A DNA stretch of 27,738 bases. Origin: a virus. The notes below the pieces were generated by a model. It was not told where the DNA came from. It did not search any database and saw only the letters and a program-made list of their open reading frames with translations. A program made the translations under genes and the position numbers. This document shows, piece after piece, positions 6,695 through 25,438 of the stretch. The stretch's first letter is position 1; the number at the start of each line of letters is the position of its first letter. The stretch covers positions 1 to 27,738 of the IMG/VR virus record IMGVR_UViG_3300017776_000134, one strand, 5' to 3'.

Positions 6695-7249
6695 TCACGT
6701 CATCACACTCTTCAATCGATTACCCTTTTGGATATCTCGATACATCTGAACATATTGTTTTGGATAATTTCTTTGTTTTTTATTTCTACGATCTATCTTA
6801 GCTAATACTGGGTCATAACCTGCTACTGGGCCTTTTGGATCTGCTGAACCTGTATATCCTCCAGCTCCTACAGACATGGTAGGGCCTGCCTCCTCTCTCA
6901 AAGACTTGAACATTTGACGTATTCTATTTACTCTTGCTTCTGCATTTCTTTGATGTGAATTATCTGCTAACTTTAGATACTCATTTGATGCATCTACCAT
7001 ACTATCGATATTCTTTTCTGTTACTTTCTCTACTGGATATACATTTGAAAATCTATACTTTGCTAATCCTGATTCACCTGGCGTCTGATAATCTTGACTT
7101 AAATCTGGCAGAGGTAATACTGCATCATATCCAGACACAGGGCCACTAGCGGTAGCAGAATTTGTATATCCGCCATCGCCAACAGACATCGTTGGAGATT
7201 CTTTGAGAGATCTTGTGATGTCAATTACTTTTGACAATCCCTTGTTCAT
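6695..7249 (-). CDS. Protein with internal 27-residue duplication, 184 aa
   Basis: Two near-identical 27-residue units stand at residues 19-45 and 123-149. Both begin PTMSVG.GGYT and end GP(V)(S/A)GYD.VL, and each is preceded by a basic RSLKE or KSLREE helix. The rest is polar, with a basic C-terminus (RRNKKQR). Glycine- and tyrosine-rich repeats with basic flanks suggest a minor virion or internal protein; this is inference. The start overlaps the stop of the upstream 123-aa gene by 1 nt (TAATG). No catalytic motif was seen. Confidence 0.75.
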   Translation of the reverse strand: MNKGLSKVIDITRSLKESPTMSVGDGGYTNSATASGPVSGYDAVLPLPDLSQDYQTPGESGLAKYRFSNVYPVEKVTEKNIDSMVDASNEYLKLADNSHQRNAEARVNRIRQMFKSLREEAGPTMSVGAGGYTGSADPKGPVAGYDPVLAKIDRRNKKQRNYPKQYVQMYRDIQKGNRLKSVMT

Positions 7250-10194: not shown

Positions 10195-10230
10195 GGGGAC
10201 TTGGGAGAAACCAGTCCCCCTTTTACTTTT
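10195..10230 (+). terminator. Strong hairpin with T-run on the plus strand
   Basis: GGGGACT (10195-10201) pairs with AGTCCCC (10213-10219), extended by GG/CC with one bulge. On the plus strand it is followed by CTTTTACTTTTTT, the layout of a Rho-independent terminator. No plus-strand gene ends here. On the coding (minus) strand the hairpin is followed by AAACTG, so it would not stop the main transcript. Confidence 0.5.
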
Positions 10231-11110
10231 TTACTTGTTCATTAAAATCTAGATCGATTCTCCATGCAGAAAAACCTTCCTTTACCTTACCACGTTTCTT
10301 CGCAATTGCTTTACCAATTGCCTTACGACGTGCTGAAAGATACTTATCAGTTCCATCTTTCTTACCATCATTATTGATGTCACCATCTTCCTGACCGACA
10401 GCATCCATCTTCTCAGGAATCATTCTTCTTTTCTCAGGTGTAAGAGTATCCTTTTTCTTTTCAGTTTTTGTTTGTCCAGCAACATAAGGCATATTCTGAT
10501 CATACTTTACTCCTTCTTTCATCTTCTTACGTTTCGCTTTAGTCTTTGCAATCACTCGATCAGCAGCTTCACTTCTTCTTTTATTTGGGCCGTCATAAGC
10601 CATCGCACCCTTCTGTGTACGAGGTGCTTTCTCTTCTTTTTTCTTACCAAATGCAGACATAACACCACTTGGTTTACCTGATCCTTTGTACATTCCGTAA
10701 GCCATTCCTTCCTCCATATCTTCATCCTTTTTGAATTGTGGATGTTTATCCATCTCATCCTTTGTCATTCCTCTTTTCTTTCTAAGAGCCTCTTTTCTTT
10801 TCTTAGTTCCCTCTTCACCGTCATCGAATCTCATTTCATTAACAACTTCTTCACCTAAAAGTTTTTCTTTTGCCATTGATTTCACAACATTTGGTGCTGG
10901 TGATGATCCAAGTATCTGCATAAATATTTTTCTTTTCTCTTCGTCTGTAGCACCTTGAGGAACTTTTGACTTTGCTTTATATCTTACATCAGAAGCCAAT
11001 TGTGATGCTTGTTTCTCCAAATCAGAGTCACCAGCAGCATGACCTGTTTTCTCTTCATGAACTGCTGCATACGCATTCATCAAGTCTTTTTGCAATTTTG
11101 TACTAAGCAT
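10223..11110 (-). CDS. Basic protein with dockerin-like calcium loop, 295 aa (putative virion protein)
   Basis: The protein is Lys/Glu-rich and mostly disordered-looking, with alternating KKR and MEEG segments. Near the C-terminus the loop DINNDGKKDGTD (residues 244-255) has the D-x-N-x-D-G-x5-D layout of dockerin or EF-hand-type calcium sites and runs into a basic helix (KYLSARRKAIGKAIAKKR). As I recall, this loop plus a basic helix recurs in cyanophage virion-associated proteins; function unknown. The ATG at 11110 overlaps the stop of the upstream nucleotidylyltransferase by 1 nt and has AAAAGG just before it. A TATAAATA box lies 29-36 nt upstream, suggesting independent late expression. 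Confidence 0.75.
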   Translation of the reverse strand: MLSTKLQKDLMNAYAAVHEEKTGHAAGDSDLEKQASQLASDVRYKAKSKVPQGATDEEKRKIFMQILGSSPAPNVVKSMAKEKLLGEEVVNEMRFDDGEEGTKKRKEALRKKRGMTKDEMDKHPQFKKDEDMEEGMAYGMYKGSGKPSGVMSAFGKKKEEKAPRTQKGAMAYDGPNKRRSEAADRVIAKTKAKRKKMKEGVKYDQNMPYVAGQTKTEKKKDTLTPEKRRMIPEKMDAVGQEDGDINNDGKKDGTDKYLSARRKAIGKAIAKKRGKVKEGFSAWRIDLDFNEQVKK

Positions 11111-12096
11111 TACCTTTTCGCACGTTTCTTTCTAGATTTATTTATAAAATTTAATATGATCGGATGATGAGCAAGTCTTTGAACATATTCACGATGAGAA
11201 TCTGTTCCAACTTCTCTTTGACTTGCAGGCACACCAGAGATCTCAGTAAACTTCTCAGTGATATCCTTGATCCATGATTTGAACATCATATTATCTTCAG
11301 TCACTGCAATAATATGATTTGCACCTGTACGAATAATCTTACCAACCAAACCAGTATTATCATTCTCTACAGTATCTCCTACTTGAAATACATTTCCATT
11401 CATGTAGTTCTCACGAAGATTTCTCCAATCAAACTTAGGAGCAATTCTCCACATCTCATTCTGTTGTTTCTTGACATTCATTCCTTTTCTAATTGAATCA
11501 TATAACTTTCTTGCATTCTCATCCTTAAAACCTTTTGGTATTCCTGTTCTAAAAGTATCATAGTCATCATCTGCAGCAGCCTTTCTTAACTTAGATGCTG
11601 ACATTGCACTAACACCCTCACCATCTGGGTCACGATCTCCAGCAGACACTACTTTAATACGATCAAATTTATAAAGTTTATTATTATATTTGTTTGCTAA
11701 GTTCTCAAATTCTTTTTGACGATCTTGTCCAACTACAATATTAACAGACTTTGCACCTCTTTCATTTGCACCTTTCAAGGCATCAAAGATTGTTCTAGTC
11801 TTATCATTATTCATAATATGTTTCGCATGAGTTGGAAACATTTGTTGCATATATCCAATCTTTGTTTCTGGATCTAATGGATTTTTTGCAGGGTCATTTG
11901 ATCTTGATGGATATATCTCATAATTACCTTTACCAGCAACCTGTTTTACTTTGTTCAAAAGTTTCTCATGTCCAGTTGTGGGTGGATTAAAACGACCAAA
12001 AGCCACAGTCATATCCGCCTCATCATCATTCGGATTCGGCTTCGCAACTGTTTGAGAAGATATTGCTTCGTTTATAAATCTAGTAAAACTTTTCAT
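11110..12096 (-). CDS. Nucleotidylyltransferase (NMNAT/cytidylyltransferase-like) with C-terminal SH3-like domain
   Basis: A 328-aa protein. Residues 29-180 carry the HxGH-family signature GRFNPPTTGH (34-43, with TTGH in place of HxGH) and the partner motif SAMSASKLR (163-171, ISxxSxxR-like), which together bind and activate the nucleotide. VVGQDR at 121-126 is also typical. Family members join NTPs to small phosphates, for example NMN to NAD, or glycerol-P or pantetheine-P activation. Residues 230-270 (FQVGDTVEND..GLVGKIIRTG) look like a KOW/SH3-type barrel that recurs in cyanophage proteins. Start and stop overlap both neighbours (ATGA and TAATG), so it is coupled to the KxDG protein upstream. 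Substrate unknown. Confidence 0.8.
   Translation of the reverse strand: MKSFTRFINEAISSQTVAKPNPNDDEADMTVAFGRFNPPTTGHEKLLNKVKQVAGKGNYEIYPSRSNDPAKNPLDPETKIGYMQQMFPTHAKHIMNNDKTRTIFDALKGANERGAKSVNIVVGQDRQKEFENLANKYNNKLYKFDRIKVVSAGDRDPDGEGVSAMSASKLRKAAADDDYDTFRTGIPKGFKDENARKLYDSIRKGMNVKKQQNEMWRIAPKFDWRNLRENYMNGNVFQVGDTVENDNTGLVGKIIRTGANHIIAVTEDNMMFKSWIKDITEKFTEISGVPASQREVGTDSHREYVQRLAHHPIILNFINKSRKKRAKR
11139..11146 (-). promoter_or_regulatory. Late-type promoter box TATAAATA
   Basis: An exact match on the coding strand inside the last codons of the nucleotidylyltransferase gene, 29 nt before the ATG of the 295-aa putative virion protein. The spacing is nearly the same as at 8245-8252. Because the codons (F-I-N-K) need AT-rich triplets, chance cannot be excluded. 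Confidence 0.5.
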
Positions 12097-13304
12097 ATTT
12101 TCGGTGCGGGCATAGGATTACCCTTATCCCAATTTTTATCTGCGGTAAAGTTTGCACGACTGAACTCTAAACGATCCACAAGTTTAAGAGCTTGACCTGA
12201 TCGGATTGCAACAAATCCTTCGGGTGCAGTTACACGATAACCATCTGGAGTTCTTAAAAAAGTTCCAAAGGTATTCACTTTCTGCAACTTACGAATCATA
12301 AAATTTTTCGCAGCCTGTAAATTCATATAAGATGCAACAGTCATGTATATTGACTGTTGATTATCAGAGATAAATTTCAGACCTTTATTCTTAAGCTCTA
12401 AGTATTTATCTTTTGTTGACTTCATCTTCTTAGTTGCAATTTCTTTATCCAATGCGTTTGAAAAATATTGTGCAAAGTCTCTTGCAGTATTGCGAGCACC
12501 AATTAAATTACGACCTTCACGAACATATCGATTAAAGAAAGTCTTGAACATAATATTCAGAGTAAACTTATTCATGTTATTTTCTTTCATCATGTCAAGA
12601 AAACGAGATGACTGTTTTAAAGATCCTTCCGTTTTGTTGACAAGATTTGCATAACTTGTTTTTTCAGCTTGAGTCATATTAGCTTCACCAGATGCATTTT
12701 TAAAATCAGATGATGTCACAAATACATCAGTGTTACCTTGAACACCGATGTTACCAAAACTTGCAGACATTGTATCTAAACTTCTTCCAGAATATGAGGT
12801 GTGAAATACGATTCCAAATTTTGCCTCAGATATCTTTTGTCCAATATCACTATCCTTTGGAACTGCGTAGACAATTGTGTTTGGTTGAAATGCAATACAT
12901 GTATCACCACCTATCACAGCTTCATACTTATCATCAGTAAATAAAAGATCTCCTTGTACTACATTTGGAATTGAGAGTTGTGAAAGATATTTGTAAGCGT
13001 CTTTAAGTTTTTGTGCAAGTTGCCCAGGCGGATATATTCTATCTACATCTTCTTCCGAGTATATAATTTTTGGAGTTACCGCATTGAACACAGACTTTGT
13101 ACCAACAAAAAATCTTCCGTTATCTGGATTTGTACCACAAACCACAGCAGGAGCTCCATCCCACTTCACAGTAACCCGAGCATCTGCACCTCCTTGGTCT
13201 AACATCCTTCCAAGTGATCGAAGAAAAGCAACTGCTTCTTTACCACCTTGAGATCCGCCGTTCAAGATATTATCTTCTAAGTGTTCGAGGTGAGTATTTT
13301 TCAC
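12093..13304 (-). CDS. KxDG-motif protein, DUF6267-like, possible ligase/nucleotidyltransferase
   Basis: A 403-aa protein. VTVKWDGAPAVV (44-55) contains K47-x-D-G, the motif I lysine of the DNA/RNA ligase and capping-enzyme superfamily. FFVGTKS (65-71) and VVQGDLLF (115-122) could stand for motifs III and IV. A canonical motif V (xKxK) is not obvious, so activity is uncertain. I recall this type as DUF6267, common in T4-like cyanophages. The start is GTG at 13304, overlapping the upstream TAG by 1 nt; the stop overlaps the next ATG (ATGA). Coupling to an adenylyltransferase-like enzyme suggests joint work on nucleotides or RNA ends; that is inference. Confidence 0.75.
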   Translation of the reverse strand: MKNTHLEHLEDNILNGGSQGGKEAVAFLRSLGRMLDQGGADARVTVKWDGAPAVVCGTNPDNGRFFVGTKSVFNAVTPKIIYSEEDVDRIYPPGQLAQKLKDAYKYLSQLSIPNVVQGDLLFTDDKYEAVIGGDTCIAFQPNTIVYAVPKDSDIGQKISEAKFGIVFHTSYSGRSLDTMSASFGNIGVQGNTDVFVTSSDFKNASGEANMTQAEKTSYANLVNKTEGSLKQSSRFLDMMKENNMNKFTLNIMFKTFFNRYVREGRNLIGARNTARDFAQYFSNALDKEIATKKMKSTKDKYLELKNKGLKFISDNQQSIYMTVASYMNLQAAKNFMIRKLQKVNTFGTFLRTPDGYRVTAPEGFVAIRSGQALKLVDRLEFSRANFTADKNWDKGNPMPAPKI

Positions 13305-13519
13305 TATCTATTGAGAAAGTAATGATTTATGACTTCTATCTTCTCATGTGCCTGTGCAATTGCAGTAATCTCTGTCTCTATTGCTGACATAACATCAGAA
13401 TGCTCACCAATACCCACAGGTTGATTGAGATAGATCTCAACGTTCTGTTGGTGTTTAGCAATCAAACCATTATAGTATGTGATTTGATTCTTTAGAATAT
13501 CTTCACGCAAATTAACCAT
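13304..13519 (-). CDS. Small helical conserved protein, 71 aa
   Basis: Residues 4-35 (LREDILKNQITYYNGLIAKHQQ...) and 44-68 (SAIETEITAIAQAHEKIEVIN) form two amphipathic helices joined by VGIGEHSD, a helical-hairpin layout. I recall similar proteins as widespread in cyanophages without function. The ATG at 13519 is chosen over an in-frame TTG at 13528. A Shine-Dalgarno is not visible. The upstream gap holds an extended -10 promoter and a late-like box. It overlaps the KxDG gene by 1 nt, so it heads a coupled string of at least four genes. Confidence 0.75.
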   Translation of the reverse strand: MVNLREDILKNQITYYNGLIAKHQQNVEIYLNQPVGIGEHSDVMSAIETEITAIAQAHEKIEVINHYFLNR

Positions 13520-13539
13520 GTGATACAAGTAACTAAGTT

Positions 13540-24316: not shown

Positions 24317-25438
24317 TTACCTTATGATGTCGATGTGCATGTCTTTATTCCAAACCTCTAATTCTTTTCTGAGAGAACCATTGGACTTAAGACTTTCATA
24401 TCTCTTAGAGGCTTTGTTCTTCCACCATTTGATGAGGTTCTCTTGATAGAATTTATCAAAGTTGATTGGGTTTTTGACTAGAATGTCTTCATCTCCTCGA
24501 ATAACTTCTCTAGAATTAGCAAATCCATAGTCACTGAAGTAGACTCTTTTCTTCTCAGTTAGATTCTTTGCATTTACAATTGCAGTCTGGAATTCCGCAG
24601 CCTTTTGAGAAGACGAGTTCTTTTTGATAATAGATATCATCTTTTGTTGTGTCTTTAATTTGCGACTCGAAGCGTCCTCTTTGACTAATAACTTGTTGTT
24701 GTTTCTCTCGATAAACCATTTGTTTAATCCTTTAAAGACATCATCATGTAACAAAGGAGTAAAATCACTCATAGTCAATCCTTTATACCTCATATATGGT
24801 TTCAATCCATCATATTGAGATGATGACTTTGTTGTACCGTAAAGTGATGTAGTCTCAAACAAGCAAATATCAGATCCATATTTACTATTTAACTGTTCTC
24901 TAGCTTCATGAGAACAAGATAGTAAGGCAAGAAGTTTACCACCCAGATAATTAAATCCAAATGGTTGGGTGGGAACGATAATAAATCCCATGATTGAATG
25001 TCGATTAAATCGTTTCAACTCTGGTGGTCTACCTAACCAATCATTACGAGGTTTGCAATTGATAGTGGGTGAACCAAAACGAATAAATCCAACTATCTTT
25101 TTTGTATTAGTTTCCATGACAATCCACTTGAGTGACTTGCCAGGAATTGAACTTTCAATCGAGTGCGAGGTTGTTATCTGTAGTCTTTCATTAAAGTATT
25201 CATTTGTGAAACTATCCGTATCTCCAGCAGCATAAACTTTAAAGTTCATCTCATTTGGATGCATGTCAAATGCATCAAACATATCCTCCTCAGGCCCACA
25301 GCCAGGAAGATATGTCGGCATCTTTGACATTCTATCTAATTTTACATTACGAAGATATTCATCAATACGACCCATATTTGAGAAGTAATTGATGAATTGA
25401 TCAGCTGCATATGCAGCATCACTTTCACTTAGATTCAT
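24317..25438 (-). CDS. GNAT/DUF4338-like enzyme of unknown substrate, 373 aa
   Basis: The core at residues 100-225 reads WIVMETNTKKIVGFIRFGSP, then IMGFIIVPTQPFGFNYLGGKL, then LFETTSLYGTTKSSSQYDGL. The order (strand, G-F-x-R at a V-strand, P..G-loop, ETT-x-x-YG) resembles the GNAT-type fold of DUF4338 (DruA) and of Mom-like DNA modification enzymes. I cannot tell from sequence which one, and the match is by eye. Residues 250-345 are Lys/Ser-rich, with an extra helical tail. The ATG at 25438 overlaps the previous stop (ATGA). It lies in the clamp-loader operon and is the largest unexplained gene there. Confidence 0.65.
   Translation of the reverse strand: MNLSESDAAYAADQFINYFSNMGRIDEYLRNVKLDRMSKMPTYLPGCGPEEDMFDAFDMHPNEMNFKVYAAGDTDSFTNEYFNERLQITTSHSIESSIPGKSLKWIVMETNTKKIVGFIRFGSPTINCKPRNDWLGRPPELKRFNRHSIMGFIIVPTQPFGFNYLGGKLLALLSCSHEAREQLNSKYGSDICLFETTSLYGTTKSSSQYDGLKPYMRYKGLTMSDFTPLLHDDVFKGLNKWFIERNNNKLLVKEDASSRKLKTQQKMISIIKKNSSSQKAAEFQTAIVNAKNLTEKKRVYFSDYGFANSREVIRGDEDILVKNPINFDKFYQENLIKWWKNKASKRYESLKSNGSLRKELEVWNKDMHIDIIR

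Follow-up and report, generated by a model that had tools for sequence, protein, structure and literature searches.

The ten-residue N-terminal tag of the bacteriophage T4 protein IPIII, in which residues 4 and 7 direct packaging and residues 8 and 10 direct cleavage, is the closest described counterpart of the element considered here (PMC9026906; statements taken here and below from the cited articles refer to the parts of their text that were available). Nucleotidylyltransferase-like proteins have been reported from cyanophage virions, such as gp154 of S-CREM2 (PMC10665884), S-SZBM1_140, the sole enzyme among 30 virion proteins of S-SZBM1 (PMC9146016), and the NMNAT-like or cytidylyltransferase proteins for which S-CBWM1 and S-SCSM1 were also cited (PMC10665884). 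Phages are described as combining RNA ligases, nucleotidyltransferases and nicotinamide adenine dinucleotide (NAD) enzymes, including an NAD+-linked tRNA repair (PMC9503650), and injected polyvalent proteins as carrying pol-beta nucleotidyltransferase and kinase domains (PMC5512222). The window analysed here, i.e., the whole stretch of 27,738 nucleotides (nt) of the IMG/VR virus record IMGVR_UViG_3300017776_000134, is a piece of a T4-like marine phage genome, with cyanophages and marine viruses among the DNA matches listed. Its minus strand carries gene A (12093–13304; 403 amino acids (aa), GTG start), assigned by Pfam, AlphaFold2 and VIA to the long form of DUF6267 as a predicted ligase-like covalent nucleotidyltransferase, which is transcribed first, and gene B (11110–12096; 328 aa), a predicted HxGH nucleotidylyltransferase of the NMNAT/PPAT fold according to PHROG_395 and its AlphaFold2 model. 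The N-terminus of B reads as a T4-type head-targeting tag, and a head-loaded B acting with the ligase-like A as one unit of a nucleic-acid and NAD maintenance kit is the preferred reading, with a probability of roughly one half (about 0.52).

The predicted capsid-targeting sequence of gene B

The first ten residues of B, MKSFTRFINE (12067–12096, minus strand), are, as judged from sequence, a capsid-targeting sequence of the T4 type with cleavage expected before A11, an element that the original prediction made from the same DNA had missed. The T4 record gives MKTYQEFIAE, followed by A, as the N-terminus of IPII/IPIII, and B is in the same register, with F7, I8 and E10 identical, F instead of Y at position 4 and A11 after the cut, so that the four determinants are occupied by F4, F7, I8 and E10. 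The exact register was found in 124 of 194 B homologues (3 of the 197 being excluded from this count), representing 47 distinct 11-mers, against a mean of 0.04 in shuffled sequences, and a looser form in 157; beyond what the pattern itself demands, K2 is present in 47/47 of the distinct 11-mers and A11 in 32. The remaining N-terminus varies by lineage, while the tag stays constant. Behind the head tag, a loose pattern detected a module RLGLxxDGHGGWYDxxGEFVAKTxxGKLKFY in about 74 of the 197 homologues (L101 and others), with a similar stretch in S-CREM2 gp12 (L140), which is found in virions and annotated as Cas9-like, and in S-CRM01 128c (L308); the module may have a common role in packaging or ejection.

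Both virion proteins introduced above are B homologues. The N-terminus of S-CREM2 gp154 is MKNFSSFLTEA, and S-SZBM1_140, which begins with MRFRQFIIEA, a tag one residue shorter, lies directly behind its A homologue S-SZBM1_141 with a 1-nt overlap. The strict tag motif occurs in 5 of 219 S-CREM2 proteins, and all five belong to the 52 virion proteins of the available list (Fisher test, 6e-4; 0.003 without gp154; 4e-5 with 24 structural proteins removed). Hence B probably resides in the virion and enters the host at infection. What is new is the head-targeting tag, the T4 mechanism and the virion B homologues being already known; the word "targeting" occurs 0 times in the available text of PMC10665884. 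The tag ties a recurrent unexplained proteomics result, the cytidylyltransferase/NMNAT-like protein in cyanophage virions, to that known mechanism, and allows the enzymes that marine T4-like phages may deliver on entry to be predicted from sequence. A further virion protein of S-CREM2, gp156 (L142:31412-32122), encoded two genes behind gp154, has a weak NTP_transf_2 match (E 0.00034) and is thereby a candidate for a second nucleotidyltransferase-like component of virions.

A number of observations weigh against a head-loaded pair. The peptide counts are low, namely, 3 unique peptides for gp154 and 2 for S-SZBM1_140, and the S-CREM2 authors, while proposing the delivery of gp154 into the host, allow for carry-over (PMC10665884). 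The exact register is kept in only 15 of 45 members of a less redundant B set; the strict motif was chosen after some S-CREM2 N-termini were already known, and a looser motif marks 8 S-CREM2 proteins, 7 of them in virions. The B proteins of S-PM2 and S-CAM4 have no tag; packaging is, therefore, not universal. As for A, the untagged S-SZBM1_141 is not named in the available text of PMC9146016, and the untagged S-CREM2 homologue gp87 is missing from the available virion list, so that A is not always delivered; the absence of gp87 fits with the tag as the deciding feature. The low counts, the authors' caveat and the untagged B of S-PM2 and S-CAM4 might also mean that the tag is coincidental, that B was detected in virions through carry-over, and that the pair consists of ordinary cytoplasmic enzymes of mid-infection. 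Such an explanation is scarcely probable in view of the exact register and its shuffled control, the constancy of K2 and the frequency of A11, the presence of all five strictly tagged S-CREM2 proteins in virions and the B homologue as the only enzyme in the second proteome, that of S-SZBM1.

Coupling of the two genes and their enzyme families

The original prediction had described a nucleotidylyltransferase gene and a KWDG gene sharing four nucleotides, and both open reading frames (ORFs) are indeed open on the minus strand, with the stop of A and the start of B overlapping at 12093–12096, an arrangement of translational coupling. Long-form A ORFs and a tagged B starting from -60 to +400 nt relative to the A stop form 117 pairs, of which 100 overlap by exactly 4 nt and 4 by 1 nt; for the 88 distinct pairs, the corresponding numbers are 73 and 4. 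A and B are unrelated to each other by profile comparison and match different halves of a single PHROG, 455, which gave the first hint of a fusion. In S-PM2, the protein S-PM2d138 of 591 aa comprises A (4–400) and the B core (403–590), while metaG-MbCM1_189 is a single frame of 728 aa with A, then the tag, then B, in which the lost stop could be an error because the sequence comes from a metagenome. More such fusions may lie behind further long proteins named "cytidyltransferase-like" that matched the A model. In addition, 26 of 197 B homologues bear a fused pol-beta-type nucleotidyltransferase domain, called by sequence pattern with Pfam checked on two, and one more adds a P-loop kinase to it.

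The linkage was counted in partly redundant loci retrieved with A or B as the query, excluding 7 of 266 A with envelopes below 250 aa. Of the 176 long-form A loci, 155 also contain B (122 adjacent, 33 elsewhere), 19 show no B but have little room and 2 lack B despite at least 2.5 kb of room; short-form A (n = 83) has B adjacent in 1, lacks it despite room in 43 and has little room in 39. The short form adjoins B in some isolates, such as S-RIM2 and ACG-2014d. Taken with the kept overlap and the natural fusions, which bear out the coupling, the pair forms a genuine, conserved unit of ligase-like and NMNAT-like enzymes that can be fused.

For B, the expected HxGH family was confirmed by both motif and fold. 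The protein carries GRFNPPTTGH at residues 34–43, where TTGH (residues 40–43; 11968–11979, minus strand) is the HxGH-type signature. The residues G34, R35, N37, G42, H43, R126, G153, R155, S166 and R171 are invariant in 190/190 aligned homologues (166 distinct; 7 of 197 excluded), position 40 being occupied by T in 175 and by H in 15; the B of S-CAM4, outside the aligned set, has Q in place of N37. The best PHROG match is PHROG_395, "cytidyltransferase" (3e-102). The AlphaFold2 model, built from 42 of 46 selected sequences, some of them trimmed, has a predicted local distance difference test score (pLDDT) of 82.7, and the (H/T)xGH and SxSxxR signatures are present on a nucleotidylyltransferase fold in which PPAT (Z-score 14.4) and the NMNAT domain of NadM (13.9) tie. 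Thus, B is by sequence and model a predicted nucleotidylyltransferase of the NMNAT/PPAT type. Nicotinamide mononucleotide (NMN) is favoured over other phosphates as the candidate substrate, since, of 42 diverse B members, 41 are matched by the NMNAT model TIGR00482, 33 by NadR and 20 by PPAT at E ≤ 0.1, with 3.5e-6 as the best NMNAT E-value; window B reaches 15.9 bits against the curated NCBIfam NMNAT cut-off of 112.45. Neither a Nudix nor a kinase domain was found in window B. The C-terminal beta domain (about residues 226–281; 11254–11421, minus strand), seen as strands in the model, is a separate gene in S-PM2, where S-PM2d141 matches B 227–279, and S-CAM4 gp096 is, by its position, presumed to be such a separate form as well.

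The breadth of the TIGR00482 matches also suits an explanation in which B, packaged or early, acts as an NMNAT to restore NAD+ in the face of a host NAD-depleting defence, and A is merely co-expressed and serves DNA replication or repair separately. It draws on the jumbo phages K64-1 and CBB, which have B without A nearby and whose genera are not among the named A matches, on S-CREM2, where A and B are unlinked (a point that weighs against the preferred reading too), and on the untagged A of the window. Separate roles are nevertheless unlikely given the A+B fusions, the 4-nt overlap kept by 100 of the 117 pairs and a tagged A beside a tagged B at the locus L352 described below.

Gene A belongs to the Pfam family DUF6267 (E 1e-125), which was found in 471 of 50,697 phage records and, by its family name, had no mention in the literature searched. 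The original prediction had placed the KWDG protein in the ligase/capping superfamily, and that assignment held in both motif invariance and the fold test. The residues K47, D49, G50, P52, G57, K70, F73, Q117, N142, Y146, T169, E362, G363 and K374 are invariant in 259/259 full-length homologues (235 distinct; 7 of 266 ORFs excluded as partial) and hold in the short forms of about 300 aa too. A loss of K47 or TTGH in relatives, which would have refuted the original prediction, was thus not seen for K47 in these 259 homologues, nor for G42 and H43 in the 190 aligned B. K47, the predicted nucleophile of motif I (codon at 13164–13166, minus strand), is followed in order by EGFV (residues 362–365; 12210–12221, minus strand) and KLVDR (residues 374–378; 12171–12185, minus strand), which are taken here to be motif IV-like and V-like. 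With the isolate records set aside, there were 72 homologues below 70% identity, and 71 of them entered the folding alignment, the window replacing its copy L001 and one being omitted. The AlphaFold2 model has a pLDDT of 90.1 and a predicted TM-score of 0.85. When the Foldseek candidates were re-aligned with VIA, all 50 entries listed were ligases or ligase-containing complexes, many of them human LIG1 and two of them non-homologous end joining chains assigned by residue numbering. RNA ligases lead the list, with the Naegleria RNA ligase as the best match (Z 8.3, 182 residues, 4.0 Å), followed by T. brucei REL1 (TbREL1; Z 7.7) and T4 Rnl1 (Z 7.5). Most likely, as far as the model can tell, A acts in the manner of the covalent nucleotidyltransferases of the RNA/DNA-ligase superfamily, outside the Rnl2 family by sequence, and the predicted active site renders the function of DUF6267 testable.

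The fold comparison has its own counterweights. Foldseek of A against the PDB gave no significant match, with an unrelated CorA in the first row; Z 8 is reached by just 3 chains, each from the Naegleria ligase; VIA itself cautions that Z 7–8 is frequent without kinship; and hhalign of A against 14 T4 Rnl2 sequences gave a probability of 0.1%, i.e., no sequence-profile link to that family. A sequence-only search of A against the PDB gave 0 matches, and the A profile gave weak unrelated ones only. In a viral structure library, an Agrobacterium phage RNA ligase matched weakly (E 1.3e-3, TM 0.25) as the first functional name once the cytidyltransferase-like proteins and the misnamed fusion of metaG-MbCM1 are set aside. 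The LigA-type NMN-binding domain is presumably absent from A, none being seen in a by-eye comparison. No match to A was found on plasmids, the PADLOC models matched neither A nor B, and the Vibrio A used as an IMG/VR query recovered no relatives.

The genomic position of A would suit a replicative DNA ligase that replaces T4 gp30 in the replication cluster of marine T4-like phages. In S-CAM9 and S-RIM2, A has helicase/MazG on one side and primase/nrdA on the other, and in S-PM2 it comes after gp41 and MazG, while gp30 belongs to the quasicore genes, many of which are missing from one or more cyanophages (PMC2993671). Such a substitution is quite unlikely because Stenotrophomonas phage DLP6, according to the available part of its description, has gp30 plus an A homologue, S-CREM2 encodes, besides A, a protein annotated as DNA ligase (gp190), RNA ligases head the fold list, and replication needs no tagged A.

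Tagged gene A and the role proposed for the pair

A tag-only scan of IMG/VR with a pattern modelled on B returned at least 123 matches, 6 of which gave ORFs shorter than 50 aa. The listed ORFs of at least 50 aa, no fewer than 117, include 49 B homologues and 4 tagged DUF6267 proteins (loci L312, L352, L370 and L410), and among these matches all 4 tagged A have KxDG and a B-motif protein within 5 kb. The tag motif marks this B-motif protein in L312 and L352 but not in L370 and L410. L352 combines a tagged B with a tagged A of very divergent sequence (KTDGG), and the two genes again share 4 nt. Tagged A is uncommon, as only 1 of 257 A homologues of the main set has the tag, and the A of the window is untagged. 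A tagged protein with a DVDDT motif, presumably of the HAD type, adjoins the tagged A in L370.

Two other tag-bearing surroundings were noticed. In L312, a protein of 1431 aa (L312:6336-10628) stands between the tagged A and the tagged B and has an internal SFGDFLTEA resembling a prohead protease site; its stretch HGT...GDGVYGA... is presumed, by its motif, to be ADP-ribosyltransferase-like. In S-CRM01 (L308, 128c-131c), A is followed by a run of genes whose products begin with tag-like sequences, one of them being a kinase annotated PKN8, in a layout resembling gp12-gp15 of S-CREM2.

According to the preferred reading, the first ten residues would target B into the prohead core, the prohead protease would trim it after E10, and B would be ejected into the host together with the DNA. 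In a few relatives, the tagged A may be delivered too, whereas an untagged A, as in the window, probably acts within the infected cell. A would form a lysyl-AMP at K47 as a covalent nucleotidyltransferase and seal or adenylylate broken RNA (or DNA) ends, and B, acting with it as one unit, would as an NMNAT-like nucleotidylyltransferase supply or regenerate NAD+, or else a related adenylylated cofactor, as early as the first minutes, probably to counter host nuclease or NAD-depleting defences. RNA-end sealing with NAD-type nucleotide supply is proposed as the most likely role of the pair. The pol-beta-type and DVDDT parts of the relatives fit nucleic-acid end repair, and together with the ligase they may, by analogy, recall the kinase/phosphatase/ligase RNA repair. 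Delivery appears to be a lineage option and not the core function, since S-PM2 and S-CAM4 retain A and B without the tag. The interpretation put forward in the original prediction is partly supported, in its two families and, by the overlap and fusions, in their coupling. Its RNA 5'-capping variant was dropped with nothing in its favour; the 50 VIA rows listed hold no capping enzyme, which does not exclude capping.

A more specific and very unlikely scheme would have A as an NAD+-using RNA/DNA ligase releasing NMN, from which B remakes NAD+ with ATP, so that a self-fuelling machine, both parts of it head-delivered in tagged lineages, is injected to repair cleaved tRNAs or damaged incoming DNA before phage translation. 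No NAD+-dependent RNA ligase was found by a literature word search, and a search for a cyanophage capsid targeting sequence found a general T4 review only; these absences are weak evidence because one such search missed the existing cyanophage virion proteomes. If tagged A is delivered as the preferred reading allows, it would provide head-delivered nucleic-acid ligases, none of which was found in a limited check of partly available literature.

Neighbouring features and comparison with known systems

Upstream, an ORF of 74 aa (13304–13528, minus strand; PHROG_1811, 4.8e-32) touches A. Downstream, a gene of 295 aa (10223–11110, minus strand; PHROG_38880, 1e-32; PHROG_764, 3e-5) has the tail DGDINNDGKKDG. 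The late-type promoter that had been suggested for this gene corresponds to the T4-late-type promoter-like octamer TATAAATA (11139–11146, minus strand), inside the 3' end of B and 28 nt from the ATG at 11110. The octamer and its placement before the next gene stand, while its count in the window, 4 against 2.5 expected and reached by 24 of 100 shuffles, is not above chance, so that only the position supports it as a promoter. The acidic DGDINNDGKKDG/DxDxDG-like tail followed by KYLxxRRKxxxKxxGK is common to the downstream protein, S-PM2d142 (L306) and S-CAM9_153 (L134). Elsewhere in the window, a protein of 184 aa (6695–7249, minus strand) has two segments (PTMSVG.GGYT...GPV.GYD.V) resembling a major head protein family (PHROG_696, 2.6e-18), with a stretch similar by eye in the S-CREM2 virion protein gp160, and a protein of 373 aa in the phage replication region (24317–25438, minus strand) has a DruA-like match (Pfam PF14236, 4e-13; PADLOC DruA, 1.7e-7).

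Compared with the known systems, the available parts of PMC9503650 and PMC5512222, in which the word "cyanophage" is absent, describe no pair of a ligase and an NMNAT-like enzyme, and those of the S-CREM2 and S-SZBM1 virion reports name neither a targeting sequence nor a ligase-like partner for the B homologues. With the Naegleria ligase, T4 Rnl1, Rnl2 and REL1, A shares by re-alignment the fold and the order of the KxDG, EG and K motifs. However, it has no detectable profile similarity to Rnl2, differs in a five-helix insert at 212–341 of the long form and in the invariant N-terminal H5, H8 and D11, and, since the chain stops about 25 residues after motif V, has no further C-terminal domain, unlike the RNA ligases. 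With NadD, NadM, NadR and PPAT/CoaD, B shares the HxGH-type core and the SxSxxR end (Z 13–14), but it is far below their curated cut-offs and adds a C-terminal beta domain and the head tag. The proteins IPI, IPII, IPIII and Alt of T4 likewise carry a ten-residue N-terminal tag in the register of B. The cargo is different: IPI is a small nuclease inhibitor and Alt, according to PMC9026906, an ADP-ribosyltransferase, whereas B is a predicted nucleotidylyltransferase coupled to a ligase-like gene.

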